Positions 10,701-49,457 of a stretch of DNA of 64,000 nucleotides are shown one piece after another. The stretch covers positions 25,648,365 to 25,712,364 of the forward strand of contig NC_092678.1 of NCBI RefSeq assembly GCF_964355755.1, given 5' to 3'. Position numbers and translations under genes: made by a program. The number at the start of each line of letters is the position of its first letter. The first letter of the stretch is position 1. The notes beneath the pieces were generated by a model. It was not told where the DNA came from, did not search any database, and saw only the letters and a program-made list of their open reading frames with translations. This DNA is from Antedon mediterranea. Its lineage: Eukaryota > Echinodermata > Crinoidea > Comatulida > Antedonidae.

Positions 10701-13700
10701 GGACCAATAAAATCCAGGGACCAATAAAAATCTAGGGACTAATAAAATCCGGGTACCAAAAGTCTGTAATTGGGGTTAAGACATATTGAGTGATTACTTA
10801 ATATATAGAATTGTTAAGTTTCAACATACTGGTGTAATTATACCACAAACGCCAACTGGTTGTTTGAGATGTAGTTGCCTCTTGGATTTGAACCCAGAGG
10901 GCAGCACATCACCATACACTCTCTTGGCCTCTTCTGCAAACCACTCCACAAATGATGTTCCATACATTATTTCTCCTCTAGCCTCTGTAATTGTTTTCCC
11001 CTATAATTAAAATAGGAAATATAAATAAGTATTTACTATTCATACTGTAGCTCATAAGAAGCTCTGTCTAAACTCTCAAACTTTATTTGACAAACAAATG
11101 TGATGTGCCCATATATGGAAATGATGTCGTCATATTACTATCATATTTTAGCACATCACTTCCCTATTTAGGCATATCACACTTTTTTTGTCAAACTAGT
11201 TTGATAGTGTAGTTTAGCAGTTAAAAAAAGAAATGGTAAAAGAAAATATTGATTATAAATGGATACTTACATTTTCAGCTGTCAATATTTGAGCCAGTTC
11301 TTCTTGGTTGTTTGTCATTATTGTGTACCATTTCTTTAATAGTTTACTCCTATCCTGAAATCAAATATATTTATATTCATAATATGATGCAATTTATCTC
11401 TGTACAGTCTCAGGGCCATAGCTCGCCTCGTCCGAAATTTTCAGTTTTCAAAACCCACCCCATTCCCCAAACACAGCTTGTCGTATTTTATATTAATAAT
11501 TATATTTAATTTAAAGCATCTCTGCCTTTTTGTCTGTTTTTAAACTCTCGCTACTGCCTTCAATATTTTTATATTTAAAAACTTAAACAACATACAAAGG
11601 CTGTGTAGTCTTTCCATTGTTTGAATGCTTTAGCTGCATGGTTAACTGCTGCTTCTGTTTCGTTCGCTGTCATGTCAGCTACTTCTGAAATCAGTTTCCC
11701 ATTTGCCGGATTCTTAACTGGAAATGTGCTGCCATCTTCTGCGGGGACCCATTTACCGTTGATGTAGGCGTTGCTGAGGGCAAGTGTCATGGCCGATCGT
11801 GATGACTTGCATATTGACGTCATAGACCTAATTGTCAATATGTTGTTGAAAAGTTTGTGTGACATTTTTCCGATCATTTTTACATCTGAAAATAATAACT
11901 ATATTGTTTGTGAACTTGGTTACATATTTCAAAAAACGTCTTAAAAAAAACAAATAATAAATTTATAGATCATCGATTTCTTTCTTGTAATTGTATGGTC
12001 TTTAGCCTTCCTTCTTGCACACATCGAGTGTTAGAAGTTATGTGCTAGGCCTAGAATAACATGATTCACTCTCATCATCTAGGATGAGAGTAACTACGTA
12101 CTACTCTCTAGTGGAGTTTAAGTTTACCAAATGGGTGGAGTAGGAAATGGATTCTAATAAAGTCCCTAGCCTTTACACTAATATTGGATCAAATCTAGAT
12201 CTTGAAATTGATCATAATACTAAAACTTCATCTATCTCAGTGAGTAAATGTTGAAATTACCAAAAGCCCTGTTAGTGTTATGTTGCAAACTTTCACCACA
12301 CACCATCTACAAACCTCTGCACATTTAGGCCATAAGCAGTAGCTCAAAAGATGCCTAGAACATGGATTTCGTTCCCACCTCTTGGATCTACATTTTGAAA
12401 GTTGATATTGTGAAATGAATATGTTACACATACTATATCAAAAGTTCTCCATGAAATACTTGTACACTTTTGAGCAATGGCCTCTCAAAGGTACCCCACT
12501 ACTGCAAAAAAGGCACTTTTTGAGGTCTGGAGGTACTTTTATGGGCCAATATCTTTAAAAGTCTTTGTCCAAATGCAATTGTCTTTTCTCTGTGAGTAGT
12601 CCAGTATATTGTGAACACTTATCCAAAATTTAAAATTTAAAAAATAAGTATTTTGTATTTGAGGAAAACTGAAAAATTACAATTATTTAGTTGTAATTGC
12701 ACTTTTCAAGATGTTTAAGACACAATATCTTCGTAACTAATTGACATACCATATTTATATTTTTTTCCCAACTATTTGAGAGGGTTGTTAAACAAGATTC
12801 AAAGTTTCAGCTTGTCAGCTTCAGGGAGGTTTTATTTATGAAGATGCAAAAACTGAGATTTGGCCAATTTTATAGATAATTTTAATATCTTTTAGTCGTT
12901 TTTTGAGCAGTTATATTTTAATAATCAACTCTCACTATGTATTTATATTCATGCAATGGGTATCCTAGTGAGTTAGTGACACACAAGTGAAGTTTCAACG
13001 CAAAAGAAATTATTATGCAATAATATGATAGTAACTTACATTGCATTTTTTTTGTTTTTAGTGCCAATTTTGTGTGAACTCGACTCAAACCGTAAAAGGC
13101 GCCTGAATAAATACTATGCCTTTTCTGTACAACTACCCGAGAGGGTTGATAAACAACCTTTTCAAACCAGCTTGATGATTTTTTTTATATAGGATGATTT
13201 TTTTTATATAGGAAGATGCACTGCACCAGCTGAGAATTTGCAAATTTTATAGATAATTTTGATGTTTTATTTGTTTTTGAGGAGTACGTAAGCCTACATG
13301 ATTTCTTAGAAAATGACTTGCCATAATAATATTTATATTCATGCAATGGGTATGCTAATAGGTTAGTGACATCTGAGTAAATTTTCAACACAAACAATAA
13401 ATGATTATGCAATAACTTATTTATTGTAACTTAAATATTGCATTTTTTAGGAGTTTTTAGTGCCAATTTAGGCCAGGAGCTTCCATAAAAACAACCCATT
13501 TTTTTCTGTGAAACACCAGATAAGTAGGCCTGCCAGCCCATTTTTACTGTTTTTATATTGATAACATGAATGTAAGTCTTGTGGAGAGAACTATTATTAT
13601 TGATAATGATATGAGATGGACATATATACACACAATATACAACAAATACCTTGTAATGTATTTTCATTTATTTTTTTTTGTTTCTTTTGGATTTGTGTTT

Positions 13701-26807: not shown

Positions 26808-29800
26808 ATGTCTATTGGCACCAACATGGAGCTTCATCGACTCATTGCTGAAAGATCTGTGTCAGAACACAGCGCTGAAATGTCATTAAGTTCACTCTCG
26901 TTAAATATTACATCGGATGAGTCTATGAAATCCAGTGATTCACCTGTTGATGTTGCCGTTGAGTTTCCATCATTTCCAAAAAATATTGGAAACAAGTTGC
27001 CTTTAAACATACCAATTGAGAAGAGAAAGAAAATGAATGTTTTAGACATTGTCTTCGAGTTTCCAGATTCCATTACCTGGTCGTCACCAACAAAAACTGT
27101 TGTCGTGGAAAAATCTGAAAATGGCAAACTTGGTATTGCTTTCTATCAAAAACAGGTAAGTTTTACTTTATAGTTATGTTTTCAAGGATAACCCTAAGCA
27201 AATTCATTCACTATCCCTCTTAAAGATCGAAATCCCGTTCACAAGACAACATATACAAAGCCTTATTACAATTCTTTGAGAGTGACATATGACATGGAGT
27301 GGAATTGTGACTTGGGGCGCGTTTATACAACACGCTATTACACGCATATTCTACACGCCTACGAGAAGTGTGTTGTATAACAACAAAGAGATTCCGTGTA
27401 ATGAGATTTTAATTGCAAAAAAGGCTACTTGGCTGAATCCTAAAATTTGGTGGATTCCCGGTTGCCGTTACCGTGTTGGAAGTGTCCTCAGGGTATATTT
27501 TGACCTCTCGTTAAAACAGGTCGTAATATCAATCATGTCATGCAACGTCTAACAAGATTGGGCCCATTTATTGCTGCTTCGCTGCCAGCAATCATCCTCC
27601 TACCACGTCTTACGCCTAGCCTGGTAGGGCCAACTCGTAGTGCTAGTAGGCCTCTATAGACTATCGTTTCCCACTCCAAACAGAATAAAAAATAACATCG
27701 CAAAAATGGCATCTTCTTCCATAGTGTATAGATGAAACAATGAAACCCTTAAAATAACTTTTATTAATTTAAATGAACCGAGAACAAAATAAACAACAAT
27801 GCAAACGTGAACGAATACAATAATGAAAATGGTAAAAACCGCGCGAATACATCGGACAGCGAGGAGGCGACGATGATTTGTTGACAACAACCCAGCCAAC
27901 AATTCAATTCAAGCGATCAACGATTTGACCATCATGATTTGACCTTTTATCCTAGCATGCACTGTGTGTTGATGAAACTTCCGGTACAACACGGTATCGT
28001 GATTTCTAGTATAACAGCAAACGTTAAGGTGGGTTGACCTCGGTCCGAACAACACGCTAAAAATTTAAGCCGTGTTCAAATTTAGGGTGTTGTATAAACA
28101 CGACCTTGGTGACGGTCCTGGCACATGTCAGGATTTTTAATAATTTGTAATAAGTCTGTTTCTTATGATTTAAACAATACTTTTAAAACATTAATGTAGT
28201 AAACTTCAAATCAATGATAATGTACGTTTTTAGGGAAGTTGCCGTTATTATTTCACAATACATAGCATAAAGAGAGATTCGCCAGTTTATGGCAAGTTGA
28301 AGTGTGGAGACTGGATACTCTCTGTTAATGGTAACCCAATGGATTCTGAGAAAAATGTAAGTCTGCACTTTAATTTGTTTTAAGTCCTCAAAAAATTCTA
28401 AATACTTAATAGTTTAATATCAACAAACAATAATTATATAGGTTAGTTTGTGCATGTAGGTATTTTATACCTCCATGGTTTGTGCATGTCTGTGGCGTTG
28501 TTTGTGCATGTAGGTATTTTATACCTCCATGGTTTGTGCATGTCTGTGGCGTTGCTTGTGCATGGAGGTATTTTATACCTCCATGGTTTGTGCATGTCTG
28601 TGGCGTTGCTTGTGCATGTAGGTATTTTATACCTCCATGGTTTGTGCATGTCTGTGGCGTTGCTTGTGCATGTAGGTATTTTATACCTCCATGGTTTGTG
28701 CATGTCTGTGGCGTTGTTTGTGCATGTAGGTATTTTATACCTCCATGGTTTGTGCATGTCTGTGGCGTTGCTTGTGCATGTAGGTATTTTATACCTCCAT
28801 GGTTTGTGCATGTCTGTGGCGTTGCTTGTGCATGTAGGTATTTTAAACCTCCATGGTTTGTGCATGTCTGTGGCGTTGCTTGTGCATGGAGGTATTTTAT
28901 ACCTCCATGGTTTGTGCATGTCTGTGGCGTTGCTTGTGCATGTAGGTATTTTAAACCTCCATGGTTTGTGCATGTCTGTGGCGTTGCTTGTGCATGGAGG
29001 TATTTTATACCTCCATGGTTTGTGCATGTCTGTGGCGTTGCTTGTGCATGTAGGTATTTTTTACCTCCATGGTTTGTGCATGTCTGTGGCGTTGCTGAAT
29101 ATGCCTTTAGTTAGCTTGGACAAAAGACGTTCACAAATTCACTATTAAGTGAAAGTGTGTACCTGTAGATTGGTGAATACATGTTCACTGATGCATGACA
29201 AACTGTGTTTTTGATTGTGAATAGGCCTTTAAAAAAATATTGAATAAAAGGATGATTGAATTACAATACATATTTAGAGGTACTATAAGGTATTTAGTGT
29301 GTCACACATTAGTGGCATAAAGAAAAAATTTAACATACAAAAAGTAATATTTTAATAGAGATTACATTAAAATACATTACTTATGTCAGATTAGTATTTA
29401 ATCTGAAACATTGTAAAATTAATTATATAGTACAGAATTTCAAGTCTATATCTGAAATTAATAAAAGTCACAATTTCTCTCCCATCAAATTTCACGTTTC
29501 CCAGTTTGAAGGAAGTGTATAACCAGGAATACATTCTGGTTTTTTTAACTTTCAATTTTAGAGAGGTTTCTGAGAATTGCAAACTTCTTGAAAAATGAAA
29601 CCATTCTATATTTCGATTGAAATGAATTTCAATATGAATTTCTTAGACTATATTTAACAAAGATGGTCTATTTTATTATTAGACTTATAATATTCTTATG
29701 CTATATTGTTAAAATATTTATAAAAAAAACATTTTTTTTTTATAGGTAAGCAAACTAAGCAGTATTGTGAAAAATACCAGAAATGTAAAATTTATTGTGC

Positions 29801-32800
29801 AAAGTCCTAAAAAATATGATGCATCAAAACTATACCTAGGCGGTACAAATCCTCTTAATCCTCAAAGGCAGAAAAAAGTGGTAAATAAAGAGTCCTGGCT
29901 GGACACCAACATGCCAAATCTTCCTTTCTTGAAACTGTTTGTATTTGGAAAAGAAAGTTCATCCATTACACTATCTCTGATTGGTGCAACAAGCATGTCG
30001 GAGGTAAAACCAACTAATCCTGTAGCAGCTTTGGCATATGCAGATCTGAATCAAGATCATGATTGGTTACGAGTCAAGCATAGTGTTAACTATTTTGCGG
30101 AAGTGTTGGATTCAAGACAAAACTTTGCATTCAGAGGACAATCATTTGGTGGTACATTCCACCAAAATGTTCGTCTAGAAGTCGTTGCGCTTAAGGAAGG
30201 GCACTTAACGGAATCATGTTCCCAAATACTGCTATGTAAACACGCTATTTATGCGATTCAGTTCAGTGTTGAACAGTTTCTTGCGGATTCTGAATCTGTC
30301 CTGGAAACAATCCAAAAACATTTATGTAAAATTAAATGCTATGTATCAACAAAGGTCAGAGTTTATCTGATCGGAACGCAGAATTCTAATATTTCATGCA
30401 ACGTTCACGATATTGGCAGAACGTTACACAACCGATTTTGTGTGTCTTATGGCAATATGTTGCAGTACGATGCGTTGACAAATGCGCCATGTTTCATCGT
30501 GAAGCTCACAAGATATAATCAACGAAAACTGATAAGTGAAAGTTTTGATTCATTCTCTGATAACAATATGTTGTTGGAAATGTATGACGATCATTTTGGC
30601 GAAGACTTTCATCTTTATGACATGCAAGTTGTTAAGAATCATATTTCAAAGGTGGCTCTCAGACAAGGCTTCGTTGATGCTTCGTATCCTTACAGATACC
30701 TACAACTTCATAAGCGTGTTCATGATTTGCGAGATCAAGGATTAAAGTTTCAACTGCAGAACAACTTTATTTTAAATTGCATGGATGTGAATAGTTGCTT
30801 GACGTATCTACATGATTCAGGAGATATCCTTAATACAGGTATTGTTAAATTTAATTTTTTGATGGTCGTAAAAACAATTTTTTTTTTTTTTTTTTTAAGT
30901 TTGTTGGTTAAATTTACAGTATTTTTTTCTTTAAAAAGTATTTTATTTAGTTTCCGATGGCCGTACCTATAAAAATACTGTAAATTTAAACAACAAACTT
31001 TTTTTATTATTTTATTGAATTTCTGATGGCCATACATATAAAAATAGTGTAAATTTAATCAAAGTTTTTAAAGTATTTTATTTAGTTTCCGATGGCCGTA
31101 CATATAAAAATACTGTACATTTTAACCAAACAAAGTTTTTTAAAGTGGAGATTATTTATATCGTGTTACCTGACACAATAGTCATTGTTATGGTGTCTCA
31201 TTGAAGCATGAAAACGTGCCATGCAATGAGTCACTTTATACAGTCTAGTAGTTTTGTAATATTTGTTGAATCTGCTCTCATTTCTATCACAATTTTTAAT
31301 CAATTTCTTGCAGGTAATCTTGTGTTTTCGTCTTCTACTCCAAATGGGTTGATCATGCTTGATCGCCAGCACCTTCTGAGAAACGCTTGCACCATTTCTA
31401 ACGCTCCCCTAGAGTCACTGTGTCATCCGAATTATTACGACGGCTGGCAGAACCTTAAAACGTCCGCTTGTGCTGAAAAGAAATTTCTATCGCAGCTGGT
31501 TGACGGCGTACACAAAGTAGAATTATTAGAATCAATGAATGTAATACATTGCTTGAAAAGAAACGATGTTTGTGGTGCTAATAACAATCATTCTGATGAC
31601 GTTTATTTGGTTCCAATTTATCTCAAACAACATTTCGAGTTGGATCCCTTTCTTAAAAGACAATTCCATCATCAGCTTTGCGTCGACTTCAATGGAATCA
31701 TTCCAGATGGGTTGTTCTTAAGAAGTGCTATTTTAATGATTCAGAAGTTACAACAATCTGATTGGCAATTTCTAAGTCACAATGCACTTCAAGTTAGTAT
31801 GCGAGGGTGTTGTGAGTTTATAATTGAGTCAGACTCTAGGAAAGGAGTTATCAACATCCATGCCACGTAAGTAATAATAATTATAATATTTTTATTCATT
31901 GTTATTTTAATATTGTAAATTCAATCATGGACCTATTTATAAGGTCCATAATTCAACAATGCTTGTTGAAGGTCATATTGTGAGTAATTGTTCTCTGTTT
32001 ACACTATCAAACTGTGCCCAAATATAGTTGTGATATGCCCAAATATGGTAGTGATATGCCCAAATATGGTTGTGATGTGCCCAAATATGGTAGTGATATG
32101 CCCAAATATGGTTTTGATATGCCCAAATATGGTTGTGGTATGCCCAAATATGGTTGTGGTATGCCCAAATATGGTAGTGGTATGCCCAAATATGGTTGTG
32201 ATATGCCCAAATATGGTTGTGGTATGCCCAAATATGGTAGTGACATGGACACATCACATTGGTTTTTTGTTACGACGAACAATAAAACAATAATTTTTGT
32301 TTTATTAGATGGTTTGGAACGTACAGCCCTCTGAATCTCCTAAATCTTGTGACGGAAGTGTTCACTGCCATCTCACCACAACGGACATTGATCGGGCCTC
32401 CGTGCCCGTTGTCATGTGACGAGTGTCACAAAAGGGATGGTGACAACAGGCAAACACATGTCATTGACCTCAGTAAGTACTCAATGTACAATGGTCTGTA
32501 CTGTGGCTCAGAACATATTGACAACGATGAACATGTTGCACCATGGATTCAAAAGAAACCAGCAAACGTGGTAAGTATCATTTATTCAAAAATTTATGTC
32601 TCTGCCACTTATCTTTCCACTGAAAATATTACTATAATCTAATTTTGTTTCAAAGGGTCACAAAACTGACTCACTTTTGATTTGTTTTTAATACTTGTGT
32701 TAAGAATCCAATCTCTTCAATTTTATATTTGTTTGCTTGAATAGATTTGCCAGATTCCTGATAGCACAATGAAATGCCTTAGCTTAAAGACGCGTCTGAT

Positions 32801-33650
32801 GGACCTACCCACAAAGGTTACTAACATCATAGAAGATAACATGAACTATGATGATCCATTGAATCGGAATTGGAAAGGCCTCGCAAGTAAGTACATTATT
32901 TAATTGTTTTAGATATTTGCAATTGTGCTTCTTTTGAATTTTAGTAGGATTATTAAAATCTAATAACAAATATCAGTTTAAAAAAATTTAGATCTGGTTT
33001 GTTTTTGTTGTAAGAAGCCTTTAAGTTGAAATGTAATTACATTGTTTTTATTTTTTACAATTATATTCCATAAACTCTGTCTACACTATCAAATTTTATG
33101 TGACAAAAAATGTGATGTGTCCATATATGGACATGATGATATCACTACCTCATTTGGGCACATCACTACCATATTTGGGCACATCATTACCATACTTGGG
33201 CACATTATACATTTCTAGTTGAATCACAAGACTATTGATTATTATAATGAACTCTGTAACCATAGAATTCCACTCTTGGCATTCTCCCAACAATATGCAA
33301 TGTTATGACCAAATAAAGCCAAAGACAAAAAAAATGGATTTGTATATAAATATAAAAGAAAATAAGGTCATGACAAAAACAGGGAAAATTGTTTAAATAT
33401 ATTTTAAAGTAAATCCAATTAAATCTCTGATCAGAATAATATTGTTGTTTTTACAGGTATACTTGGTTACACTTGCCGAAAAGCAAAAATGCTGGAAAAT
33501 TATCCCAACAAAACGGGTAAATTGTTACAAGACTTCGCCAAACAAGGCGGCGTAACCCTTGGAAAAATGTTTAACCTACTAAAACATGAGGAGCTTCGTA
33601 GGTTTGACATTATTGAGGATATTGAATCATGTTTTGAAATTGTAGATTAA
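26808..33650 (+). CDS. PDZ - degenerate Roc - COR - Death domain protein
   Basis: Seven coding exons, 26808-27155, 28234-28356, 29746-30838, 31314-31866, 32309-32570, 32745-32886 and 33457-33650, close in frame to 904 residues. Residues about 96-180 form a PDZ domain (carboxylate loop N-G-K-L-G-I-A-F-Y; then C-G-D-W-I-L-S-V-N-G). About 217-410 resembles a Roc GTPase fold, but the P-loop is G-K-E-S-S-S-I-T, the DxxG position reads A-L-K-E-G, and the G4 position reads G-T-Q-N. About 411-700 is COR-like (Y-P-Y-R-Y-L-Q-L, then T-Y-L-H-D-S-G-D-I-L and N-G-L-I-M-L-D-R-Q-H-L). Then a Cys-rich stretch (C-P-L-S-C-D-E-C; Y-N-G-L-Y-C-G) and a Death domain at about 826-900 (N-W-K-G-L-A-S-I-L-G-Y, then G-G-V-T-L-G-K-M-F). 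Roc-COR-Death occurs in DAPK1-type proteins; PDZ in front is not an arrangement I know. A signalling scaffold is inferred. The start is the first ATG after the acceptor at 26795. Confidence 0.85.
27312..28108. mobile_element. Candidate non-autonomous DNA transposon (about 800 bp) in intron 1
   Basis: Left end GGCGCGTTTATACAACACGC and right end GTGTTGTATAAACACGACC form an imperfect terminal inverted repeat. GTGAC flanks both sides (27307-27311 and 28109-28113), a possible 5-bp target duplication. The ORFs inside show no transposase features. It lies in intron 1 of the PDZ-Roc-COR-Death gene. Confidence 0.55.
28446..29095. repeat. 54-bp minisatellite, 12 copies, with hairpin unit
   Basis: Unit near GTGCATGTAGGTATTTTATA followed by CCTCCATGGTTTGTGCATGT and CTGTGGCGTTGCTT. 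Some copies read CATGGAGGTA-TTTTA-TACCTCCATG, a perfect hairpin. The period is 18 codons and free of stops in several frames on both strands, which creates three long spurious ORFs. It lies in intron 2 of the PDZ-Roc-COR-Death gene. Confidence 0.95.
30885..31135. repeat. Tandem repeat of about 80 bp, 3 copies
   Basis: Three copies of a segment containing attttatttagtttccgatg, gccgtacatataaaaatact and gtaaattta, in intron 3 of the PDZ-Roc-COR-Death gene. Confidence 0.8.
31991..32252. mobile_element. MITE family 2 copy with internal 21-bp array
   Basis: The left terminus is ctctgtttacactatcaaac. The family's internal phrase gcccaaatatggtagtgata is amplified into about ten 21-bp units, and the right side ends near gacacatcacattgg. 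The long ORFs on both strands are repeat read-through. It lies in intron 4 of the PDZ-Roc-COR-Death gene. Confidence 0.8.
33071..33215. mobile_element. MITE family 2 copy, right end lost
   Basis: Begins TAAACTCTGTCTACACTATC, carries atgtgtccatatatggacat and three ttgggcacatcactacc-like phrases; the right inverted terminus is absent. It lies in the last intron of the PDZ-Roc-COR-Death gene. Confidence 0.8.
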
Positions 33651-36497: not shown

Positions 36498-38347
36498 CTA
36501 TTTAGTTTCAATAGGAGCACCTTCTTTCAACTTTGCTCCTAAAAATCCACTAAGGTAAGTCATCATACTCAGTTCGTCAATCTTTGAATCTGTAAGCTCT
36601 TCAGGTGTTAAAACCTATAAAATGAAATAGGAAATTATTAAAGACAATGCAGTTGTCCTTGTGTGTAAACATTGGACATCCTAAATGCTTAGTTATAATC
36701 TACCTGTGTAACACCTAACCAATCATCTGCAAGCTGCATAATCTTTCGTAAATGTTCAACTACCTCGCTGTTCTCATTGTCATCTTTGAGTTTAGGACAC
36801 AAACCTAAAGAAAAATATTAAAAAACAACACTCATTGTCTTTCTTTGTCATCTGCCAATTGGCAGGTCCATGATAGTCTTCTTTCTCCATACTTCTCTAT
36901 TTAGTGATTCTTCTTCTAGTTCCGAATATTTTTAGTTTTTAATCTATCAAGCATAGCTATCCTTATTATACTTAACACTTATTATATAAAAATATTTTAC
37001 TTTTTCTTAAAAGATGCTATTTTTAAATAAAACCTTATTTACAGTAAATTACTATACTAGTTTTTAAATTTGTTTGGGTCTTTAAAAAAGTAAAAATGTA
37101 TAGTTTGGGTGTAGGCCTTACCTGGTGCGTGGGCGTCGACCAACGCATGAACAGCACAGCCATCATTCCAATCTGTCGTCAAGTTGTTGATCGTTGGTTT
37201 TTCTATCTTGTCTTTTACCCAGTTGAGTAATTGCTGATTTCTGGTGCTCTCTTGTTCAGTTATATCTTCCAGTTTTAAGAATGCATACTTAAGTATAAGT
37301 GACCATATCACTCCCCCAATCTGGCTCACATTTCCATTTACAATTTCCCCTGCATCTGTTTTGAATGATAATTATAGAATTTAATATGTAAAGGAAATGT
37401 GATTAGTTTAGTGTGTATATTGGTGCTTTGATATAGCCCTACTCCCCACCCAAATCTTTCCCCCTCTCCAAATGCCATACCCTACAGTATATTCAAACCT
37501 CTTCCTTCTCACCCCCTTTCACACTACAATACCCAGGGTCATTATATTCTAGATGGCAGGCATATGTAGAGGAATGTGATTAGTTTAGTGTGTATATTGG
37601 TGCTTTGAAAAATTGTTCCACCTTGTGCCATGTAAATAGTACTACTACTCCCCCACCTGACTCTTCCCCCACCTGACTCTGCCCCCACCTGACTCTGCCC
37701 CCACCTGACTCTTCCCCCACCTGACTCTTCCCCCTCCTCGCCCTCCAAATGCCCTACCTTATATTTAAACCTCGACTCTTTCCCCATCCCCTTTCATACC
37801 AACACTGTCAAGCAACATTCAGGGCCATTACATTCGAGGTGTATATTATGTGTATATGAAATGTGTACTTTATTCTACCAGTGGCGGATCCAGTATTTTG
37901 AAATGGCAAATTTTAAGTGCCGAACTGAAATTAGTGTCCTATCCTTTGCATTACAATAGCAACATTTAGGTGAGCCTGCTGAGTGCGCCTGCTGAGTGAG
38001 CCTGCTGAGTGCCCCCTTGAATTCGCCTATGTTCGTATTGTCTAAAAATGACCCGAATGATACTTACCAAAGCCAATAAGCTTAAGTCCTTCACTTCTTA
38101 CTAACTCCAGAGCTACCTGTACATTCTCAATCTTTTTTGACTTGAATAACGCCATTTTATTGTAGCGTGGTATTTTCCTGTTTGTTACCTTTTCCACTAA
38201 TGTAATTAGGATGACACCATTGCTGAAATCTTTACCTATACTTTTGACACGTTTACCACTGCCTTCTAATTGTTTGTTACACCAGCGAATAACAACATTT
38301 TGTTGCAATTGTGTCCATTCTGTATCGGGTCCTGGATCTTCTGACAT
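36498..38347 (-). CDS. Filamin-type actin-binding domain protein (two CH domains only)
   Basis: Minus-strand exons 38068-38347, 37122-37355, 36704-36804 and 36498-36614 join in frame to 243 residues. CH1 (about 8-125) starts E-W-T-Q-L-Q-Q-N-V-V-I-R-W-C-N and contains D-F-S-N-G-V-I-L-I-T-L-V-E, then G-G-V-I-W-S-L-I-L-K-Y. CH2 (about 130-235) has L-L-N-W-V-K-D-K-I, D-W-N-D-G-C-A-V-H-A-L-V-D, Q-L-A-D-D-W-L-G-V-T-Q and M-M-T-Y-L-S-G-F. This is the filamin-type tandem CH module that binds F-actin. The frame stops right after CH2 (G-A-P-I-E-T-K), where filamins continue into immunoglobulin-like repeats; none is seen downstream to 33.65 kb. It could be a stand-alone ABD protein or a short filamin relative. 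The start is the ATG at 38347, in the same frame as CH1. A 16-bp C-rich repeat lies in intron 1 (about 37650-37735). Confidence 0.85.
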
Positions 38348-40227
38348 TGTCTTATTCCTCAATGTAGTGCAGTTGATATCAATCTATGGTTTTTGTTCCG
38401 TCAAAATGTCAGTGAGGCTTTGCCAGCTTATGAGTTCTGTGTTGATACAATTCTGTCACTATAAAAAAGTCTTGTAAATAATCGATGTATATGTGCGTGA
38501 ATATGTCAACAATAGTATTGTAATATGTATTTGGGGCGAATCTACATGTAGGTTTAATCCTTAATAAACACAATTACAATTGAACAGTTTAAAAGATCAT
38601 ATTGAGTCAGACTTTGTATTGTTATGTAAAACATGCTTGTCATAAATATCAATTTATAACAACAGTATGAATAATTGGTACAAAAAGCAGGAGGGCTCAG
38701 CCATGTGGAACACGCAAACATACCAGTTTCACCCGTAATGACCATATATGGGCATTAGTGTGGTTAATGTAAAAGAATATAATATACATTTGAATGTAAA
38801 CTAAAAATGAGTGGGTGAGTGCTTACAGGGCAAGGCTATACTGCTGTGTATTATCAAATATCAAATGAGTGGGTGAGTGCTTACAGGGCAAGGCTAATAT
38901 ACTGCTGTGTATTATCAAATATTTAATAATTCTACATTTGTACTGATTTATTAAAGTATACACATTATAATGTAAGAAGCTAAAGTTTATAAAATGTTTA
39001 AAAAAATTAATTCAAAGTTTAATTTCAAATATGTTATTATATTAGTCATAATTATATAGTTTTTAAATAAAAAATGAACAAACCATTCTTAATTAGAAAG
39101 GTTGTATATCAGCTATCTCTATTGAAATATACAGTAGTAGAGTGTCCTATTCATACTATACTATCTCTATTGAAATATACAGTAGTAGAGTGTCCTATTC
39201 ATACTATACTATCTCTATTGAAATATACAGTAGTAGAGTGTCCTATTCATACTATACTATCTCTATTGAAATATACAGTAGTAGAGTGTCCTATTCATAC
39301 TATACTATCTCTATTGAAATATACAGTAGTAGAGTGTCCTATTCATACTATACTATCTCTATTGAAATATACACTAGTAGAGTGTCCTATTCATACTATA
39401 CTATCTCTATTGAAATATACACTAGTAGAGTGTCCTATTCATACTATACTATCTCTATTGAAATATACAGTAGTAGAGTGTCCTATTCATACTATACTAT
39501 CTCTATTGAAATATACAGTAGTAGAGTGTCCTATTCATACTATACTATCTCTATTGAAATATACAGTAGTAGAGTGTCCTATTCATACTATACTATCTCT
39601 ATTGAAATATACAGTAGTAGAGTGTCCTATTCATACTATACTATCTCTATTGAAATATACAGTAGTAGAGTGTCCTATTCATACTATACTATCTCTATTG
39701 AAATATACAGTAGTAGAGTGTCCTATTCATACTATACTATCTCTATTGAAATATACAGTAGTAGAGTGTCCTATTCATACTATACTATCTCTATTGAAAT
39801 ATACAGTAGTAGAGTGTCCTATTCATACTATACTATCTCTATTGAAATATACAGTAGTAGAGTGTCCTATTCATACTATACTATCTCTATTGAAATATAC
39901 ACTAGTAGAGTGTCCTATTCATACTATACTATCTCTATTGAAATATACACTAGTAGAGTGTCCTATTCATACTTTGAAAAAATAATTATATTACTCGATA
40001 TTTATACCATGGAGTAATTAACTATACTATATACTATATATATGCTGATTAAAACCTTCTACAAAGCTGGCTATATGTTATAACCATTCATGGTTTCTGA
40101 GTTGATTAAAAATGTTTCAACTTCAATTTATTTATATATAATGAATTGTGATAAAATGTTCATCTGGTTTTCAATATTAATGAATTTGTAATTCTTTACA
40201 AATTTTGTTTACAAATTTAAGTTGAGT
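38348..40227. other. Intergenic with 48-bp minisatellite
   Basis: Upstream side of the filamin-ABD gene and downstream side of the whirlin-like gene. 38805-38925 holds two copies of a segment of about 64 bp (gagtgggtgagtgcttacag, ggcaaggcta). 39113-39973 is an 18-copy array, listed separately. No gene recognised. Confidence 0.75.
39113..39973. repeat. 48-bp minisatellite, 18 copies
   Basis: Unit CTATCTCTATTGAAATATAC, AGTAGTAGAGTGTCCTATTC, ATACTATA; the last copy lacks its final 3 bases. Copies are identical except for one G/C site (acagtag or acactag). The period is 16 codons and open in two frames, giving two spurious ORFs of about 300 codons. Confidence 0.95.
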
Positions 40228-43200
40228 TTAATACATAAACCAATCCTGCATATTGCTAACAACGTCAAAAGACGGTAAAGTGCGCCCTTCCGTGTCAAGA
40301 CTTTCTGAACTACTGTACGCGGACGTACTGCTACTGATGCTCCCTCTTGCACGCTTCTTACTGAATATCTGCGCTGCGAGAGAAATTCTGTTCTTCTTTT
40401 TAATCTTTGATGACTGCGTGGTGGTAGGGGGCGTTTTCTCACCAGATGACACCCCTATGTTCTGTAATGGTAGTAGTAATGGGGACACTTTCCCAGAGTC
40501 TTGCAGCGAATTATTAGAGTTTGAAATAATGTGAGGAGATCCTAGGAAGTTTTGGTTTTGTAGGTCATAGTTGGATGGTTTTGGACTCCTATTTCTAGTA
40601 ACATCAAATTCCATACTGACATCACCATTATTTTCTTCTCTATGAGAAAGTTGCTCACGAGAATAAAAAACATGCTTTATAGATTCTCGTCTTCTTTTAT
40701 CTTTTTGGTGAGCGACGTTAATATCAACAATCTTTGTGTTTTTTAAACTCAACTTCTCTTTACTGTTCAGATTTAATCGTATCGTTCCATTTTCAAATTC
40801 TTTACCTTTCAGTTCAGGTGCAATATTTTCTACTGAGCTTCCTCCAGATGTATTCGAAGGTTCTTCTAAGTTTAGTTTTGGAATTGGACATTGGTCATGT
40901 GATTTGAGTGACCGGTCATTTGAGAACAACGATTCATTTATGGGCACATTTTGGTTTCTGTATTGTCCATTGGGTATGGGGGTGGACGTACTTCTAGGTG
41001 GAGTAGCTCGCAGTTCCTAAAATATAAATAGAAAGATTAATAGTAGATTTTATTTTATCTCCGTTCATACGTTCACTTTCATGATGGATTACATTACTCT
41101 ATTGATTAGTTCAGACAACATCATTGTACGGATTACAAAATTTAGAAAGAGAGGAGGGGGTGGGGGAGGGCCTAAACAATAATCTTCATCTGGACAGGCC
41201 CTTTTATAAATTGTCATGTTTTTTGTCACTTTTTACAGTAACCTTTACATTTACATACCTGTTCAAAGGCTGAAATATTGCCAGGCCTTCTGCGGACTCT
41301 GATTGGTGTTGTAGGTAAAATACGAGACGAGTTCCGAGCATCCAATGTAGAACTTCTGCCTTGATTCGAGTCTGAAATGTAAAATTCGATCTATGTGTAA
41401 CATTTAATACTAATATAAAAAAAGATCTTCTGACTAACATATTACTCAAGCAGTGTATACTTATAAAGTTTAATCTGTACATAATTAGTTTTTATTGGTT
41501 ATCCGCACTTGGCGGATAACCCCTTGTTATTGTCAGGATCTTTTTTTTTTCTTTTTTTTTTTTCTATGTTCTTCTTTCTTTCCACGAATTTTGTTCGCAG
41601 CGTATCTCTAACTCTGGCAAACATATGATTGTATAACTTTTTCAAAAGATTGCCCTGTAGCTGTAGATGTGCAAGAAACTTTTTTTTATGAATTTTGAGT
41701 TGCGCAGCGTAAGTTACGCGCGGTTTTATGAATTTAAATGATTGATCATAAATTAAAATCCGAAAGTCATTTTGTATTGAAACTTGGTGAACATTTAAGT
41801 CATATCAAGCGCAAACTTTCTATGGATTAAAAATGGCATGTTTCACAGGAAGTTACGCGCGCACGCGCGTTTAAAATTTCTAATCAACTTTCTACGCGTT
41901 TCATGTCATTTTGAGCATTTCAAAAATTCCCAGGCATGCGCAATTTTTTTACGCGCGCATGCGCACGTAGCGCAAAAACATCTTTTTTTTTTTTGATTTT
42001 TGTTTTTCCAGCCTTTTCTAGTAAATTTACCAACTTTCAAACAATTTGGACTTAAAATCACGTCATACGAGCACGTAGAATTGAACAATTTGCGCGTGTT
42101 TTTAATGAAAAAGTTAAAAAATTTGTCAAAATTTTGCCTTTTTTAAAAAGTCATAGATTCTAAACTCCGTGGTGAACATTTTTAAAATTTCAGATTCTGG
42201 AAGTAGATGAGTTGTAGATATCAAATCATGCATCCATATGGCTAACCGGACATTGTGACGTCATCGTATGGCCACTGGAATATAAAATATAGGATTTTTG
42301 TCTCTTTCGCATAGCTCATCACATTTAATAGAGCGCATCTCTACTTATCCGTATTGCATTTCCTCCCATTTTGTTATATTGTCTAGGTCAATCAATTATC
42401 TTTCGCATAATCTACCATTTTTTAAATTGTGATGACGTCATCATGTCGAAAAGCGTCAATAACTTTGGTCCCTTATTTTCACCTATTCTGCACTGTACGT
42501 AGTACGTATACAGAATATAGTGTATAACGTATACAGTTTGACGTGACGCAAAATAGAGAGCGCACTAACATTTTTAAAATGGCATAATCATTTTTCTGCG
42601 CGCAATATTCTAACGTATGACGTGCACGTGGAGTTTGCGCTGCGGATAACCTAACTGTCCGTAGTGACGAGTTCAAATCTAGTTACTTTTGATTTACTTT
42701 TATATAGTTATTATCATTTAAAAGTTGTTTTTGTTCTTCTTGGAGGTAAAAGTAAATTTTGCCTTTTGAAATGTTATACCCACCTTGTTGTAGTCTTGGA
42801 CTTCGTCGTAGTTCCGTTGACGTCTGGCTTGACAAACTCCGTTTAACGCGATTCATGTTAGGCATCACAAGCATCTTCACAACATTTGAGGTTGTCATGA
42901 GGTCAACGACATCTAAATGGTTCATTCCAGATATGTCTTCCCCATTTACCTGGAAATATAGTTTAATTTATAATGATTATAGATTTAGTATTTTTACTGC
43001 CTTTTCCCCTCATTTTGTTATTTTCCCATTCTAGATTCTTCCAGAAAAAAAAAAAAAAGATTTCTCCAATAATATTTGCTTGAGTTTACTGGATACCAGC
43101 AAAACTCTAAACTTGGATACTGAATCTAATTGTCATATCGCCCTCTATACATATATTTTTTTTAACGGACTTAGTAAAAACCGTATGAGGTTATAAAGGT

Positions 43201-46200
43201 GAAATTACCAATAAACTGAATAAACTTTAAGAATGAATAGACAGATGATTTTTGTACTGACATTGACAAAAAAAACCGACCTATATTTGAACATTTAACA
43301 ACTTAATTCAGTGGTAAATAAACTGGAACTGATTTAGGGTGTGGTAGTTAGTCCTTTTGAAAAAAAAACAATGTGTTGGTATACAACAAAAGTACTTAAA
43401 ACAACTAAATGTGTTTAATCATTAATAAGCTTAGAAACTTAATTGATAATAACTTAATTAATATGAAACAACTACAGTTTTCAATCTCTTACAAAATACA
43501 TTATTATGGAGTAATTTTAATGGCTCTATAAGTATTTTAAAATTAAAAAATACAAATTCATAGATAAATATCCTTCTTTATTGTTAGTCAGCACCATACC
43601 TACAGTTTCTTTTGATATGTTTTCAAAAAAACATTTACAGGGCCGTAGCCACGATTATGGTTGGCCTTTGACAATCCACTGGCTTGAACACAGATTGTTC
43701 TCTTTGACAGAAGCCTTTGACAATCCACTGGCTTGAACACAGATTGTTCTCTTTGACAGAAGCCTTTGACAATCCAGTGGCTTGAACACAGATTGTTCTC
43801 TTTGACAGAGGCCTTTGACAATTCAGTGGCTTGAACAGAAACTGTTCTATTTTCTTGCGAAAACCAGACCACTTTATTTGGCTACACCACTGTTTTCTGA
43901 ACTTTTGTAAAAGTATTTAGAAATGTCAATCAGAGATAGATATCCTACATTGGTCGTCAACACCATACGTTGCCTTGGTGATTGTAATTGAATTGGTGTT
44001 ATGACAAAAGAACAATAGATTTGTGAAGGGTGCTTGTCTACCATTATATTGTAATTAAAGGTTTAAGAACACACCTTTAGTACGAGTTCTCCTCGCTTTA
44101 GTCCGGCCTTGTGGGCAGGTGATAGCGGATCTATACTTGCAACGGTCACTGGCAAGCCGTAGTCAATACCACTAAGGGATAAAAAATAAAAAAGCATTGT
44201 ACCATATCAGTTAGAAGTTTTACACCATACCACACCATATTTTCTGTATAGTTATTTTAAAATGGGTGTAACATGTTTTTTGTGTTTTGCTCTGGTAATT
44301 TTCTTTGCAAGTATTTCAAATTTGGGTAATCAATTATATATTGTGAATCTTTACCCTTTAGATCCTATAGTCAATTCATGGTTGGCAAAACAGTATAATT
44401 GTGTTTATATGGGAATGGCTTTATAAAATTATATATATTAGGTTTATAAAAAAACTACAGTTGCAACTTACCCTCGTATACTGCAACCAAGAAAGCCATC
44501 ATCATCTGCAACCAGTAATACAACCCTCATTCTGTCCACGAGTGAGTCATCCTTTCGGTATGATGAACTTTCCCGACTTCTATTTAAAAAAAGATTTAAA
44601 AGTCGGTTAAGAAAGTGTACACTGGAAGTGAATACTGTGTCATATATTTGTACTGTTATGTTATCAAACAGTTTAAACATATTTGAAAGCTGTGATACTT
44701 TTCCATCGTTTGTTCACAGGAGTATCCATTGAATAGGTGTGTCTGTTGAATACGTGTGTCTGTTGAATAGGTGTGTCCATTTAATAGGTGTGTCCATTGA
44801 ATACGTGTGTCCGTAGAATACGTGTGTCCATTTAATAGGTGTGTCGTTGAATAGGTGTGTCCGTTGAATACGTGTGTCCATTTAATAGGTGTGTCTGTTG
44901 AATAGGTGTGTCCATTGAATAGGTGTGTCTGTTGAATAGGTGTGTCCATTGAATAGGTGTGTCTGTTGAATAGGTGTGTCCATTGAATAGGTGTGTCTGT
45001 TGAATAGGTGTGTCTGTTGAATAGGTGTGTCTGTTGAATAGGTGTGTCTGTTGAATAGGTGTGTCTGTTGAATAGGTGTGTCCGTTGAATAGGTGTGTCC
45101 GTTGAATAGGTGTGTCCGTTGAATAGGTGTGTCTGTTGAATAGGTGTGTCTGTTGAATAGGTGTGTCCGTTGAATAGGTGTGTCCGTTGAATAGGTGTGT
45201 CCGTTGAATAGGTGTGTCTGTTGAATAGGTGTGTCTGTTGAATACGTGTGTCTGTTGAATACGTGTGTCTGTTGAATACGTGTGTCTGTTGAATACGTGT
45301 GTCTGTTGAATAGGTGTGTCTGTTGAATAGGTGTGTCTGTTGAATAGGTGTGTCTGTTGAATAGGTGTGTCCATTTAATAGGTGTGTCTGTAGTTAATTA
45401 CCAGTATAACTAAAATTATGCTTAAATTTAACATGAGACTTGGTGTTCAAATCAAGCAAAGTAAAAAGAGTGAATTTCTTAATGAATAAAACAAAAGTAC
45501 AATTGTTCAGGATGAAAAAGAAATACATTTTTCAAATACATTTATATAACATTATGCTCATATTATTAACTTTGGCCATTACTAATGATATATACTATGC
45601 TTTAGAATTACTGCAGTAGTCGAGGCTTAACTGTATTTGACTGCTTCCTTTAGAATTACTGCAGTAGTCGAGGCTTAACTGTATTTGACTGCTTCCTTTA
45701 GAATTACTGCAGTAGTCGAGGCTTAACTGTATTTGACTGCTTCCTTTAGAATTACTGCAGTAGTCGAGGCTTAACTGTATTTGACTGCTTCCTTTAGAAT
45801 TACTGCAGTAGTCGAGGCTTAACTGTATTTGACTGCTTCCTTTAGAATTACTGCAGTAGTCGAGGCTTAACTGTATTTGACTGCTTCCTTTAGAATTACT
45901 GCAGTAGTCGAGGCTTAACTGTATTTGACTGCTTCCTTTAGAATTACTGCAGTAGTCGAGGCTTAACTGTATTTGACTGCTTCCTTTAGAATTACTGCAG
46001 TAGTCGAGGCTTAACTGTATTTGACTGCTTCCTTTAGAATTACTGCAGTAGTCGAGGCTTAACTGTATTTGACTGCTTCCTTTAGAATTACTGCAGTAGT
46101 CGAGGCTTAACTGTATTTGACTGCTTCCTTTAGAATTACTGCAGTAGTCGAGGCTTAACTGTATTTGACTGCTTCCTTTAGAATTACTGCAGTAGTCGAG

Positions 46201-48740
46201 GCTTAACTGTATTTGACTGCTTCCTTTAGAATTACTGCAGTAGTCGAGGCTTAACTGTATTTGACTGCTTCCTTTAGAATTACTGCAGTAGTCGAGGCTT
46301 AACTGTATTTGACTGCTTCCTTTAGAATTACTGCAGTAGTCGAGGCTTAACTGTATTTGACTGCTTCCTTTAGAATTACTGCAGTAGTCGAGGCTTAACT
46401 GTATTTGACTGCTTCCTTTAGAATTACTGCAGTAGTCGAGGCTTAACTGTATTTGACTGCTTCCTTTAGAATTACTGCAGTAGTCGAGGCTTAACTGTAT
46501 TTGACTGCTTCCTTTAGAATTACTGCAGTAGTCGAGGCTTAACTGTATTTGACTGCTTCCTTTAGAATTACTGCAGTAGTCGAGGCTTAACTGTATTTGA
46601 CTGCTTCCTTTAGAATTACTGCAGTAGTCGAGGCTTAACTGTATTTGACTGCTTCCTTTAGAATTACTGCAGTAGTCGAGGCTTAACTGTATTTGACTGC
46701 TTCCTTTAGAGTCACCTGGTTCAACTAAGTACATTCATACAATTTATCAATAGCAGCCATTGTGTACATTTACTTAGGTTTCACCTGTGCTAACAATGTA
46801 TATTGGAATCTTCATGATTTATCACTCAATAATACTAAGTCTGTACTTAGAGCGATAACAGCCATACTGTACAGACGTATACAGTACTGTATGTGTTTTT
46901 TTTTAAATAAAAAACTTATTATTTATTGACCAGAGAAGTAAATCCCAAAAGGATGATAAATAAAATAGAAACATTTGCTTGTCTTAATTAAAATAACACC
47001 TTCTGTAGATACAGTATGTATTGATCCATTAAGTAATAATTACTCCATAATTATCCTAAACCAGAATCCAGTCAGACTTTACAAGTACGTCATGCACTAC
47101 ATTGATCAAATACAAATAGGGAAGTACAGTATCCCAATAGGGTGATAGAAAAATGTTTTTTTTGTTGCGTTAAGTAAAATAAAAAGATTACTCATAATGA
47201 CCTACTGTATTAATATCCTAAATCACAATCAAATAAGCAACGTTGGGCCCGGTTGCGTTCTGGATGGGAGACCATCTAGAAATCGTGGCGGGTGCTGTAT
47301 ATACTGGAGAGTGATGGTGTAATGGTAATATCGGACTAGCATGTGATAGGCATGGGTTCGAGGTTATCATACTAATTGCATCCTTAGGCAAGATGCTTTA
47401 CTCTCATTGCCTAATCTGGTAGGCGCTGCACTGCTGGCTGCCGTGGGTCCGTGGAGGGCCTAATCCTAATTTCCTCACTGAGGACAAATATTAAATAATA
47501 TTAAATACAGTAAGCCTGAACTTAAAGCATAACAGCCATACTGTACAGTACACAATAAAACATTATGTGTTTAAAATTGACCAGAGAAGTAAATCCCAAA
47601 AGGGATACATATGATAGAAAAATGGTTTTTTATGTGTCTTAATTAAAATAACACTTACTTATGATGGCCTTCTGTAGCTATGTATTGATCCATGATTTTT
47701 CTAAACCAGAATCCATTCAGAATTTACAAGAACCAAAATAAATTACCTAGGAGTATCATTTGGCGTACCAGGCATCTGTCCACATTGTGCTAGGTATAGT
47801 GTCAACTTAAAAGCAGATTTTATCGCCACCACGGCCTCCGCATGAGTCACGTTTTTAAGAGATGTGCCGTTCACTTTTAAAATCCGTTCTCCAACTTTTA
47901 AACCCTAAAAATCAGATAAATTGTAGACATTAATTCAAGATAATAAATACTGTAAGTTATTGACAAATAATTACTCTGTTTCAATTTAGGAATACAGAAA
48001 AATTGATTTTTTACCTTCTTTTCGGCTTGGCCACCTGAATCAACAGATGAAATATATATACCAGCATTAAGATCTTTTCCACCACGAATACAAAACCCTA
48101 AGTTTTCTCCATGTCTGTTTTCAAGTTTAACCTTTCGGACAGCGAGATTCTGACCTGACCTACTTGACCTTTGAACCGGTATCTCATCCGAAGTTGACGT
48201 TACTCTTAATAACTCGACATGAGTAGTTTTGCTTCGTTTTCTCTCTGCTTTTCCAGTTCTCTCGTCTCCTTGTTTGTCTTTCTTACCAGGAACTCTTGAT
48301 GTTGATGCCTCCAGATGGATTCTATCAAGGTTCCCCTCCATTGATCTGGTTCTTCTTCTTCTGTCGTTTCTTTCCCTAACTCCTTCCGTTATTCCTTTAG
48401 AAGGTTCTAGTACAGAGCTATGTCTGGCTGGTTTCTTATCTCCTTTATCTGATGGTTTCATCTTTTGATGTTCACTCTGTAGAAGTCTCTCATAATGCTG
48501 AAAATGGACGGAGCATAAACTATTGAAATCTAGAAGAAGATGTTCTGGAACCATAGAGTGAAGCACCACCAAAATCTGCATCTTCTCTTTGGTGTTAAGG
48601 ATGACTTTTAAGGAGCTACAGAAGGAAACTATGGAGTGGTTCTCTCTGAATGACTGTATGGCCGTCTTAAGCTGCTGACACTCTGCTGGCGTGAGCACCT
48701 TGTGCGACAACGATCGAAGCTTGGCGCTTGTAAGCGGCAT
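40228..48740 (-). CDS. Whirlin/PDZD7/harmonin-like scaffold (HN-PDZ-PDZ)
   Basis: Minus-strand exons 48015-48740, 47747-47904, 44472-44579, 44075-44171, 42784-42949, 41259-41371 and 40228-41016 join in frame to 718 residues. Residues about 10-90 resemble the harmonin N-like helical domain (L-T-P-A-E-C-Q-Q-L, L-N-T-K-E-K-M-Q-I-L, M-V-P-E-H-L-L-L-D-F). A basic Ser-rich linker follows. PDZ1 is about 200-290 (N-L-G-F-C-I-R-G-G; T-H-A-E-A-V-V-A-I-K-S). PDZ2 is about 305-400 (F-L-G-C-S-I-R-G-G-I-D-Y-G-L; V-N-G-E-D-I-S-G-M-N-H-L-D-V-V). The last 320 residues are Ser/Arg/Pro-rich with no third PDZ and end D-W-F-M-Y. PDZ1 is closest to whirlin by eye. The vertebrate relatives scaffold Usher complexes in stereocilia and photoreceptors; a role at sensory or microvillar structures here is inference. 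An acceptor at 48767 shows a further leader exon upstream. Confidence 0.85.
41497..42651. mobile_element. Candidate inverted-repeat element of 1155 bp
   Basis: GGTTATCCGCA at 41497 and its complement TGCGGATAACC ending at 42651 frame a block unlike its surroundings: CpG-rich stretches such as acgcgcgcatgcgcacgtag alternate with T-runs. A second ggcggataacc lies just inside the left end. No transposase ORF is visible. It lies in a whirlin-like gene intron. Confidence 0.5.
43660..43850. repeat. 49-bp tandem repeat, about 4 copies
   Basis: Unit near CCTTTGACAATCCACTGGCT, TGAACACAGATTGTTCTCTT, TGACAGAAG, in a whirlin-like gene intron. The minus ORF across it is read-through. Confidence 0.9.
44715..45392. 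repeat. 17-bp minisatellite, about 39 copies
   Basis: Unit TGTCTGTTGAATAGGTG with variants tgtccgttgaatacgtg and tgtccatttaataggtg. Three units make 51 bases (17 codons), which opens long minus-strand ORFs of no biological meaning. It lies in intron 2 of the whirlin-like gene. Confidence 0.95.
45601..46704. repeat. 48-bp minisatellite, 23 copies, identical
   Basis: Unit TTTAGAATTACTGCAGTAGT, CGAGGCTTAACTGTATTTGA, CTGCTTCC; 23 x 48 = 1104 bases exactly, with no difference that I can see between copies. It is open on the minus strand for 379 codons, a by-product of the period. It lies in intron 2 of the whirlin-like gene. Confidence 0.97.
47233..47490 (+). mobile_element. SINE with 5S rRNA-derived head and tRNA-like part
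   Basis: 47233-47298 matches the 3' two-thirds of eukaryotic 5S rRNA in order: TAAGCA, GGGCCCGGTT, TGGATGGGAGACC, GGGTGCTGTA. This spans the internal control region (A-box part, intermediate element, C-box). 47309-47368 looks tRNA-derived: an A-box-like TGGTGTAATGG and a B-box-like GGGTTCGAGGT. The tail has ccttaggcaagatgctttac and actgctggctgccgtgggtc. This architecture is that of 5S-tRNA chimeric SINEs such as AmnSINE1. It lies in intron 2 of the whirlin-like gene, antisense to it. Confidence 0.75.
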
Positions 48741-48766
48741 GTTGATTTTATTCTCAACACTACAGT

Positions 48767-49457
48767 CTGTGGGAAGAAAAATATATGTAAATAAATTCTT
48801 CTAAATCCAAAATGTAATATTCATGATTAATAATTAGCCCTGACAAAGGAATAATTTTTATCTGAGAGCTTGGTACATATTTTTAGCTGTTTTTGCTTTT
48901 TGTTTATTTTATTTGTAGATCCAGTGACTGATTTTTTCAGTAATTTGCTTTGAATTGATGATTAATGATCAAATATTTCTTATGAAAATATCAACAATTG
49001 AAACAGGGTCCCTTGAAACACACTAATGAGAAATGACTACAAAATACAAATTACATTTAATTATATATTTGTTTAATGATTTTAATTTTTTTTTTAATAC
49101 AAAAAGCAAAATATAAATCAATATTATCTAATTAAATTTGAGGATATTGAGAGAGTAAACAAAAGAGATGGAGTAACAAATAGACAGCAAATGATTCAAG
49201 CTGAAAGCACTATTGTTGTGATCCTGTCAGAGATACTCAGTCATGAATTAAAGCTATTGTTAATAATTATATTCAAATAATGAATTTGGCAACAAAAGAT
49301 GGTAACTAGTGAGAGATGAGGGATCATGTACCTTGTTAAGCCATGAATGGTTACTGTAGGTTTTAAATAACAACATTATAGACAGTACAAACAGTTTGGT
49401 AGAGAAACATTGGCTATTAATGTTATTTCTACTGAGTGAGATACATTAACATTTGAT
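48767..49457. other. Between whirlin-like gene and left LamG-gene copy
   Basis: Holds the promoter side of the left LamG-type gene. From about 49085 the sequence is the left arm of the large tandem duplication (counterpart from about 52112). Shared phrases include agacagcaaatgattcaagc and gtcatgaattaaagctattg. A leader exon of the whirlin-like gene is expected upstream of 48767 but I cannot place it. Confidence 0.6.

Follow-up and report, generated by a model that had tools for sequence, protein, structure and literature searches.

Within a 64,000-nucleotide stretch of contig NC_092678.1 from the crinoid Antedon mediterranea (assembly GCF_964355755.1, positions 25,648,365 to 25,712,364 of the forward strand; hereafter, the window), we analyzed a gene at window positions 26808-33650 that encodes a protein of 904 amino acids (aa). 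Its reading frame is open throughout, it has a PDZ domain, its COR and Cys-rich regions are homologous to those of other proteins of the same genome, and the canonical G motifs are absent from the stretch between PDZ and COR. We give an even chance to the reading that it is a divergent ROCO–Death protein with an N-terminal PDZ recognition part, a stretch derived from Roc in which binding of guanosine triphosphate (GTP) has probably been lost, and no detected second copy.

A preliminary description, made from the sequence alone, had proposed seven exons closing in frame at 904 residues. The model does close at exactly 904 residues; all exons lie on the plus strand, and all introns have GT-AG boundaries, with phases of, in order, 0, 0, 1, 2, 0, and 1. 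At the intronic stop frequency of 0.062 per codon, the chance of a 904-codon open frame is ~1e-25, and that of exon 3 alone, which is contained in a single 408-codon open frame, is ~9e-11. The GC content at the three codon positions was 0.459, 0.333, and 0.367, compared to 0.327 in the introns. AATAAA occurs at 34278 and 34344, 3′ of the stop codon. An acceptor-like tag lies at ~26793, immediately 5′ of the start codon; hence, 5′ exons are possible. The introns also contain tandem repeats. Intron 2 has a 54-base minisatellite (12 copies, 97%; window 28448-29096) whose unit includes an inverted repeat and in which both strands can be read in long open frames, and two introns carry 21-base arrays of TGCCCAAATATGGTTGTGATA and its reverse complement (window 32015-32247 and 33141-33205).

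We next describe the PDZ domain. Pfam PF00595 matched aa 98-171 when a slice of the protein was scanned (25.0 bits; expectation value [E], 2.5e-5; cut-off, 23.2), and scored under the cut-off on the whole protein (20.1 bits; E, 8.5e-4). The match spans exon 1 and exon 2 and runs into exon 3. Because the match ends within exon 3, whose single open frame also encodes the Roc-like stretch and the beginning of COR-A, it is very unlikely that the PDZ belongs to a transcript of its own. The motif KLGI (aa 107-110) agrees with the carboxylate-binding loop of PDZ domains. Class I PDZ domains have His at the αB1 position; the corresponding place here appears by eye to be Val, judging from a non-significant phmmer alignment to the X11 PDZ, and the hydrophobic class II ligands that this Val would predict are provisional. 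A phmmer search of the Protein Data Bank with the 904-residue protein gave best E values of 0.41 (MyD88 Death) and 0.7 (X11 PDZ), neither significant. The PDZ is a putative tether to C-terminal peptides, a reasonable expectation for such a domain.

To place the remainder of the protein, we used other COR-containing loci of the same genome. The Pfam COR-A search had 188 candidates, of which 150 were scored; all 150 were exon matches (weakest E, 0.15), 7 of them above the cut-off, and merging of matches <10 kb apart left ~147 loci. These include LRRK-like loci; the 904-residue gene is not among them. The matches are on contigs C3, C4, C9, C1, C5, C11, and C2, with C3 and C4 holding 94 of the 150. 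Pfam COR-B gave no match across the genome at an E of ≤0.01 among 11 candidates. We took 14 COR loci and built a paralog profile from 11. The other three were compared separately: L015 and L024, which are similar to one another and have a kinase-like open frame (LRRK-like; seen by eye in L015), and L018, for which few exons were found.

Aligned by hhalign to the 11-paralog profile, the protein scored 108.1 over aa 284-871, with a probability of 97.85 (E, 6.7e-13 for one comparison); the best of 30 shuffled versions scored 26.1, and reversal of the protein gave 18.7. The homology spans COR-A, COR-B, and the Cys-rich motif and reaches into the beginning of Death. It was as strong without aa 184-448, with aa 449-904 alone giving a probability of 97.88 (E, 5.3e-13 for one comparison), and COR-B alone gave 93.4. 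In addition, blastp matched four paralog COR-B exons (E of 3e-4, 1e-3, 1e-3, and 6e-3). When the 11 paralogs were compared singly, the hhalign probabilities were 94.9 for L016, 93.2 for L013, 88.5 for L020, 73.1 for L014, and 0.3 to 15 for the other seven. Identity was 24-26% over 212-216 columns for L016, L013, and L020. The two kinase-bearing loci reached only 0.3 and 0.4, and L018 reached 0.1. COR was thus recognized by the paralog profile and not by Pfam, which found neither Roc nor COR in the whole protein or in slices of it (for Roc, nothing at an E of ≤10). The preliminary description had named the lack of a COR or Roc match to residues 217-700 as grounds for rejecting its reading; COR does match there, so this case does not arise.

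Eight paralogs could be aligned over the Cys-rich stretch. The loose pattern CxxC...H..L...C is present in seven of them and in the 904-residue protein; it also fits 243 of 20,000 shuffles, so the alignment outweighs the pattern. For Death, Pfam on a slice gave 19.2 bits (E, 0.0014; cut-off, 22.6). Against six Death stretches from four paralog loci (three of the stretches pass Pfam Death, with E of 1e-8 to 5e-10), hhalign gave a probability of 72.9, a level that none of 60 shuffles matched; the rest of the protein, taken in segments, gave 0.64 at most. The order COR-A, COR-B, Cys-rich motif, and Death fits the ROCO–Death family of this genome, with Death as the weakest part; the Death identity is supported by these alignments, albeit less strongly than PDZ, COR, and the Cys-rich motif. 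The domain order anticipated by the preliminary description (PDZ, Roc-like, COR, Cys-rich, and Death) holds, except that Roc is not significant alone, and of the Pfam matches it called for, PDZ passes in a slice, but Death falls short and Roc and COR are unmatched.

The paralogs differ at their N termini. Six upstream stretches were taken (L013, L020, L017, L019, L021, and L023), and Pfam was run on open frames of the first three. L013 has a DED-like match (E, 1.5e-4, under the cut-off), L020 has two Macro matches (E of 1.6e-4 and 1.1e-6, both above the cut-off), and L017 has Neuralized (E, 6.4e-35). Judging from strand and closeness, these upstream frames are probably parts of the ROCO genes. 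An exon with G1 was found in four of the six upstream stretches, and all four have GxxxxGKT; WDxxG(Q/H) is present in 7 of the 11 profile loci, i.e., in every one where that exon was seen. Exons of L020 stitched together matched Pfam Roc (E, 2e-17), COR-A (E, 7.7e-15), and COR-B (E, 6.1e-5, under the cut-off). The sampled members thus appear to share Roc, COR, and the Cys-rich stretch, plus Death where found, and to differ in their front ends. The preliminary description had compared the protein with DAPK1, LRRK, and MFHAS1; the nearest relatives that we found are in this large family. Its sampled members vary upstream, and PDZ adds a further type of front end to them. Neither the whole gene nor its PDZ alone had a second copy in the genome among the best-scoring candidates, a search that weak matches can escape. 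Similarly, none of 77 PDZ exon matches (E, ≤0.001) came closer than 235 kb to any of the 150 COR-A matches, a weak search because PDZ domains split over exons, as in the 904-residue gene, escape detection. Near the ROCO loci L017, L018, L019, L020, and L024, stretches resembling the 21-base arrays seem, by eye, to be repeated, and reverse-transcriptase-like open frames (by eye) lie beside the ROCO genes at L014 and in the flank of L020 (L028).

The stretch between PDZ and COR lacks the canonical G1, G3, and G4 motifs. A motif search found no [AG]x4GK[ST] and no DxxG[QHK] in it, and the sole [NT][KHQ]xD in the protein is at aa 613, within the COR region, with none near residue 368. In a hand alignment, the place of the P-loop Gly-Lys reads Ser-Ile, and there is no Asp across residues 279-338. 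LKLFVFG, HAIYAIQFSV, and VRVYLIGTQ occupy the places of strands 1, 4, and 5 in the correct order, and the helix after strand 4 holds the sole blocks with a predicted local distance difference test (pLDDT) score near 70 in the second of two AlphaFold2 models. With COR held fixed and aa 184-448 shuffled, the observed score was equaled in 18 of 100 shuffles for local alignment and in 1 of 100 for global alignment. We also scored ordered motif blocks of our own choosing, the best G1 match (aa 187) being misplaced relative to the expected strand 1: none of 2,000 shuffles did as well with four blocks (12.3, versus 12.1 for the best shuffle), and six did with three. For single blocks, the number of shuffles of 2,000 that were as good was 35 for strand 4, 69 for G3, 319 for G4, and 885 for G1. 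Our reading is that aa 214-420 may be a degenerate Roc, probably nucleotide-free; their position and the order of the strands point to a Roc origin, and the missing motifs suggest that nucleotide binding has been lost. The earlier term "ROCO module", if taken to mean a GTPase switch, overstates the case, because canonical motifs for nucleotide binding are absent here.

The simplest interpretation of this domain content combines docking by the PDZ, pairing by COR, and clustering of Death. The PDZ would anchor the protein by binding the C-terminal tail of another protein, located in the membrane or at junctions, and the COR domains would keep it dimeric or let it form pairs with ROCO–Death paralogs. 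Clustering at such a ligand could then gather Death domains, which would recruit adaptors and caspase- or NF-κB-type signaling, and would take the place of the GTP switch. Domain content is what we observed; dimerization and signaling output are predictions from it. In a bolder form, which we hold tentatively and consider doubtful, the GTP switch has given way altogether to peptide docking, with a PDZ-anchored, nucleotide-free pseudo-Roc–COR dimer that sets off Death signaling when clustered at receptor or junction tails, within an NLR-like repertoire of interchangeable front ends. If these proposals are true, a ROCO protein lacking canonical nucleotide motifs would reveal that COR and Death can also operate with a different input, and death-fold signaling would be tied to PDZ ligands such as receptor tails. 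With ~147 COR-A loci, and with a different kind of upstream domain in each of the three scanned, the family looks like a sensor repertoire comparable to that of NLRs, and front-end swapping could be tested within one genome.

Several results weigh against a divergent ROCO–Death protein with a degenerate Roc. Roc alone is not significant. The two AlphaFold2 models, made from the single sequence, had a mean pLDDT of 35 and 39. Foldseek with the second model returned 304 matches at an E of ≤10, none at an E of ≤0.001, and no GTPase among the 50 matches listed; this outcome says little because the model is so low in confidence. The G4 Asp is gone in five of the nine paralog G4 exons used and kept in four; its loss is common in the family, so only the loss of G1 and G3 sets the 904-residue gene apart. 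Death is under the Pfam cut-off, and its profile match covers only 33 columns. Finally, a common intron at the COR-B/Cys boundary was considered and rejected: the phase is 0 in the paralogs and 2 here, with positions a few residues apart by eye.

The main rival is that the protein is a regulator or decoy that pairs by COR or Death with ROCO–Death paralogs and places or damps them at PDZ ligand sites. Loss of the G motifs with retention of COR and a Death-like end would suit such a role, as would a gene with no second copy found amid ~147 COR-A loci. However, its COR is far from those of the paralogs (24-29% identity over 160-216 columns for the best four of the 11), and heterodimers might therefore fail to form; we consider this rival rather unlikely. 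We regard as unlikely an ordinary switch-type ROCO–Death sensor, in which a divergent Roc binds nucleotide, exchange is under the control of the PDZ ligand, and Death becomes exposed once Roc-COR has bound GTP. The paralogs argue for it, with their intact G1 and the clear Pfam Roc of one stitched member, as does the β-α order visible in the low-confidence AlphaFold models. A review (PMC6320773) states that Roc and COR always co-occur and treats ROCO proteins as functional, GTP-regulated GTPases. The residues at the nucleotide-binding places, from Ser-Ile in the P-loop to the absent Asp across residues 279-338 and the absent [NT][KHQ]xD near residue 368, argue against it.

Somewhat less probable still is that Roc was lost and that another segment fills the gap between PDZ and COR. 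This is consistent with the absence of a Pfam match, with a Roc-profile hhalign probability of 1.2 (1 of 60 shuffles as good), with the local score reached by 18 of the 100 shuffles, and with the fact that no single block stands out; set against it are the global alignment, the ordered blocks, and the correctly ordered HAIYAIQFSV and VRVYLIGTQ where strands 4 and 5 belong. Lastly, the gene model comes from DNA alone and has a long tandem array inside intron 2, as might be seen in a wrong join of two genes or in a pseudogene. The PDZ match over exons 1-3, the single open frame of exon 3 into Roc/COR, the ~1e-25 chance of the open frame, and the codon-position GC that differs from that of the introns make this very improbable.

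Table 1. Exons and sequence features of the 904-residue PDZ–ROCO–Death-like gene (window coordinates)
Feature	Position	Strand	Content
Exon 1	26808..27155	+	aa 1-95 without Pfam match; first portion of PDZ, with KLGI
Exon 2	28234..28356	+	PDZ core (GKLKCGDWILSVNGNPMD)
Exon 3	29746..30838	+	End of PDZ (aa 158-177), linker, Roc-like stretch, start of COR-A
Roc-like stretch	29914..30534	+	aa 214-420; weak by sequence, position and order fit
Exon 4	31314..31866	+	Remaining COR-A and most of COR-B (VPIYLK, DFNGIIPDGLF)
Exon 5	32309..32570	+	End of COR-B and Cys-rich motif
Cys-rich motif CDEC...H...YCG	32385-32546	+	aa 732-785; in exon 5
Exon 6	32745..32886	+	Linker, start of Death (NWKGLAS)
Exon 7	33457..33650	+	Remaining Death and stop codon

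Other genes in the window were recognized alongside. On the minus strand, a gene at 42686-48800 has a harmonin-homology-like match (CCM2_C; E, 0.0013, under the cut-off) and PDZ exons, one of which (47797-47904) passes Pfam PDZ; the gene is possibly a whirlin/harmonin relative. Compared with the PDZ of the 904-residue protein, the PDZ exon at 47746-47904 was the best of 58 open frames there, at only 7.3 bits (E, 0.02); this is no more than one PDZ resembling another, and it neither establishes nor excludes an origin of the PDZ there. At 36500-38400 (minus), a small protein has two calponin-homology (CH) domains (Pfam CH E, 2e-34, on exons that were joined by eye) and ends shortly after the second. 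Aldehyde dehydrogenase exons lie at 7719-11898 (minus; two scanned, with Pfam E of 1.7e-25 and 4.3e-11, and a third at ~11578-11898 by eye), and repeated Methyltransf_FA-like domains (one scanned; E, 4.5e-20) lie at 58563-62131 (plus), 3′ of a secreted-looking Cys-rich start. A long tandem array of LLKYTVVECPIHTILS units at 39071-40017, with ~300 aa readable in two frames, is probably a minisatellite.

In the accessible portions of the open-access full-text literature, we did not find a PDZ joined to Roc-COR; protein databases (UniProt and NCBI) were outside this search. The parts seen of eLife papers naming PDZ alongside our other query terms have it in unrelated contexts, the main text of a study of amphioxus domain shuffling (PMC2575513) mentions none of PDZ, Roc, and COR, and "pseudoGTPase" was not found together with "ROCO" in open-access full text. 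The novelty of the PDZ–Roc-like–COR–Death order is not established. Known systems share parts of it. According to PMC6337361, DAPK1 has Roc-COR followed by Death, an order resembled by the Roc-like stretch, COR, and Death-like end here. DAPK1 is set apart by its description rather than by alignment of its sequence; kinase and ankyrin repeats gave no Pfam match at an E of ≤10 in the 904-residue protein, which has PDZ instead and to which further 5′ exons may belong. LRRK1/2 and MFHAS1 (MASL1; its sequence was not aligned) have COR in common with this protein, which is without their leucine-rich repeats (no Pfam match at an E of ≤10, further 5′ exons again being possible) or kinase. Trichoplax ROCO proteins carry CARD and Death with Roc-COR (PMC4104024) and so join a death fold to Roc-COR, as the 904-residue protein probably does, with PDZ unmentioned in the main text of that paper, and Aplysia TLR- and MyD88-like proteins contain ROCO domains, according to PMC9334734. 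Closest are the ROCO–Death proteins of the same genome (L013, L016, L020, and others), which are alike in COR-A, COR-B, the Cys-rich stretch, and Death where found; unlike them, the 904-residue protein has PDZ in place of DED-like, Macro, or Neuralized domains and has lost the canonical G1 and G3. CARMA/CARD-MAGUK scaffolds consist of CARD, coiled coil, PDZ, SH3, and GUK, with no COR. Like them, the protein described here would combine a PDZ with a death-fold domain within a single clustering scaffold; COR is present only in this protein.

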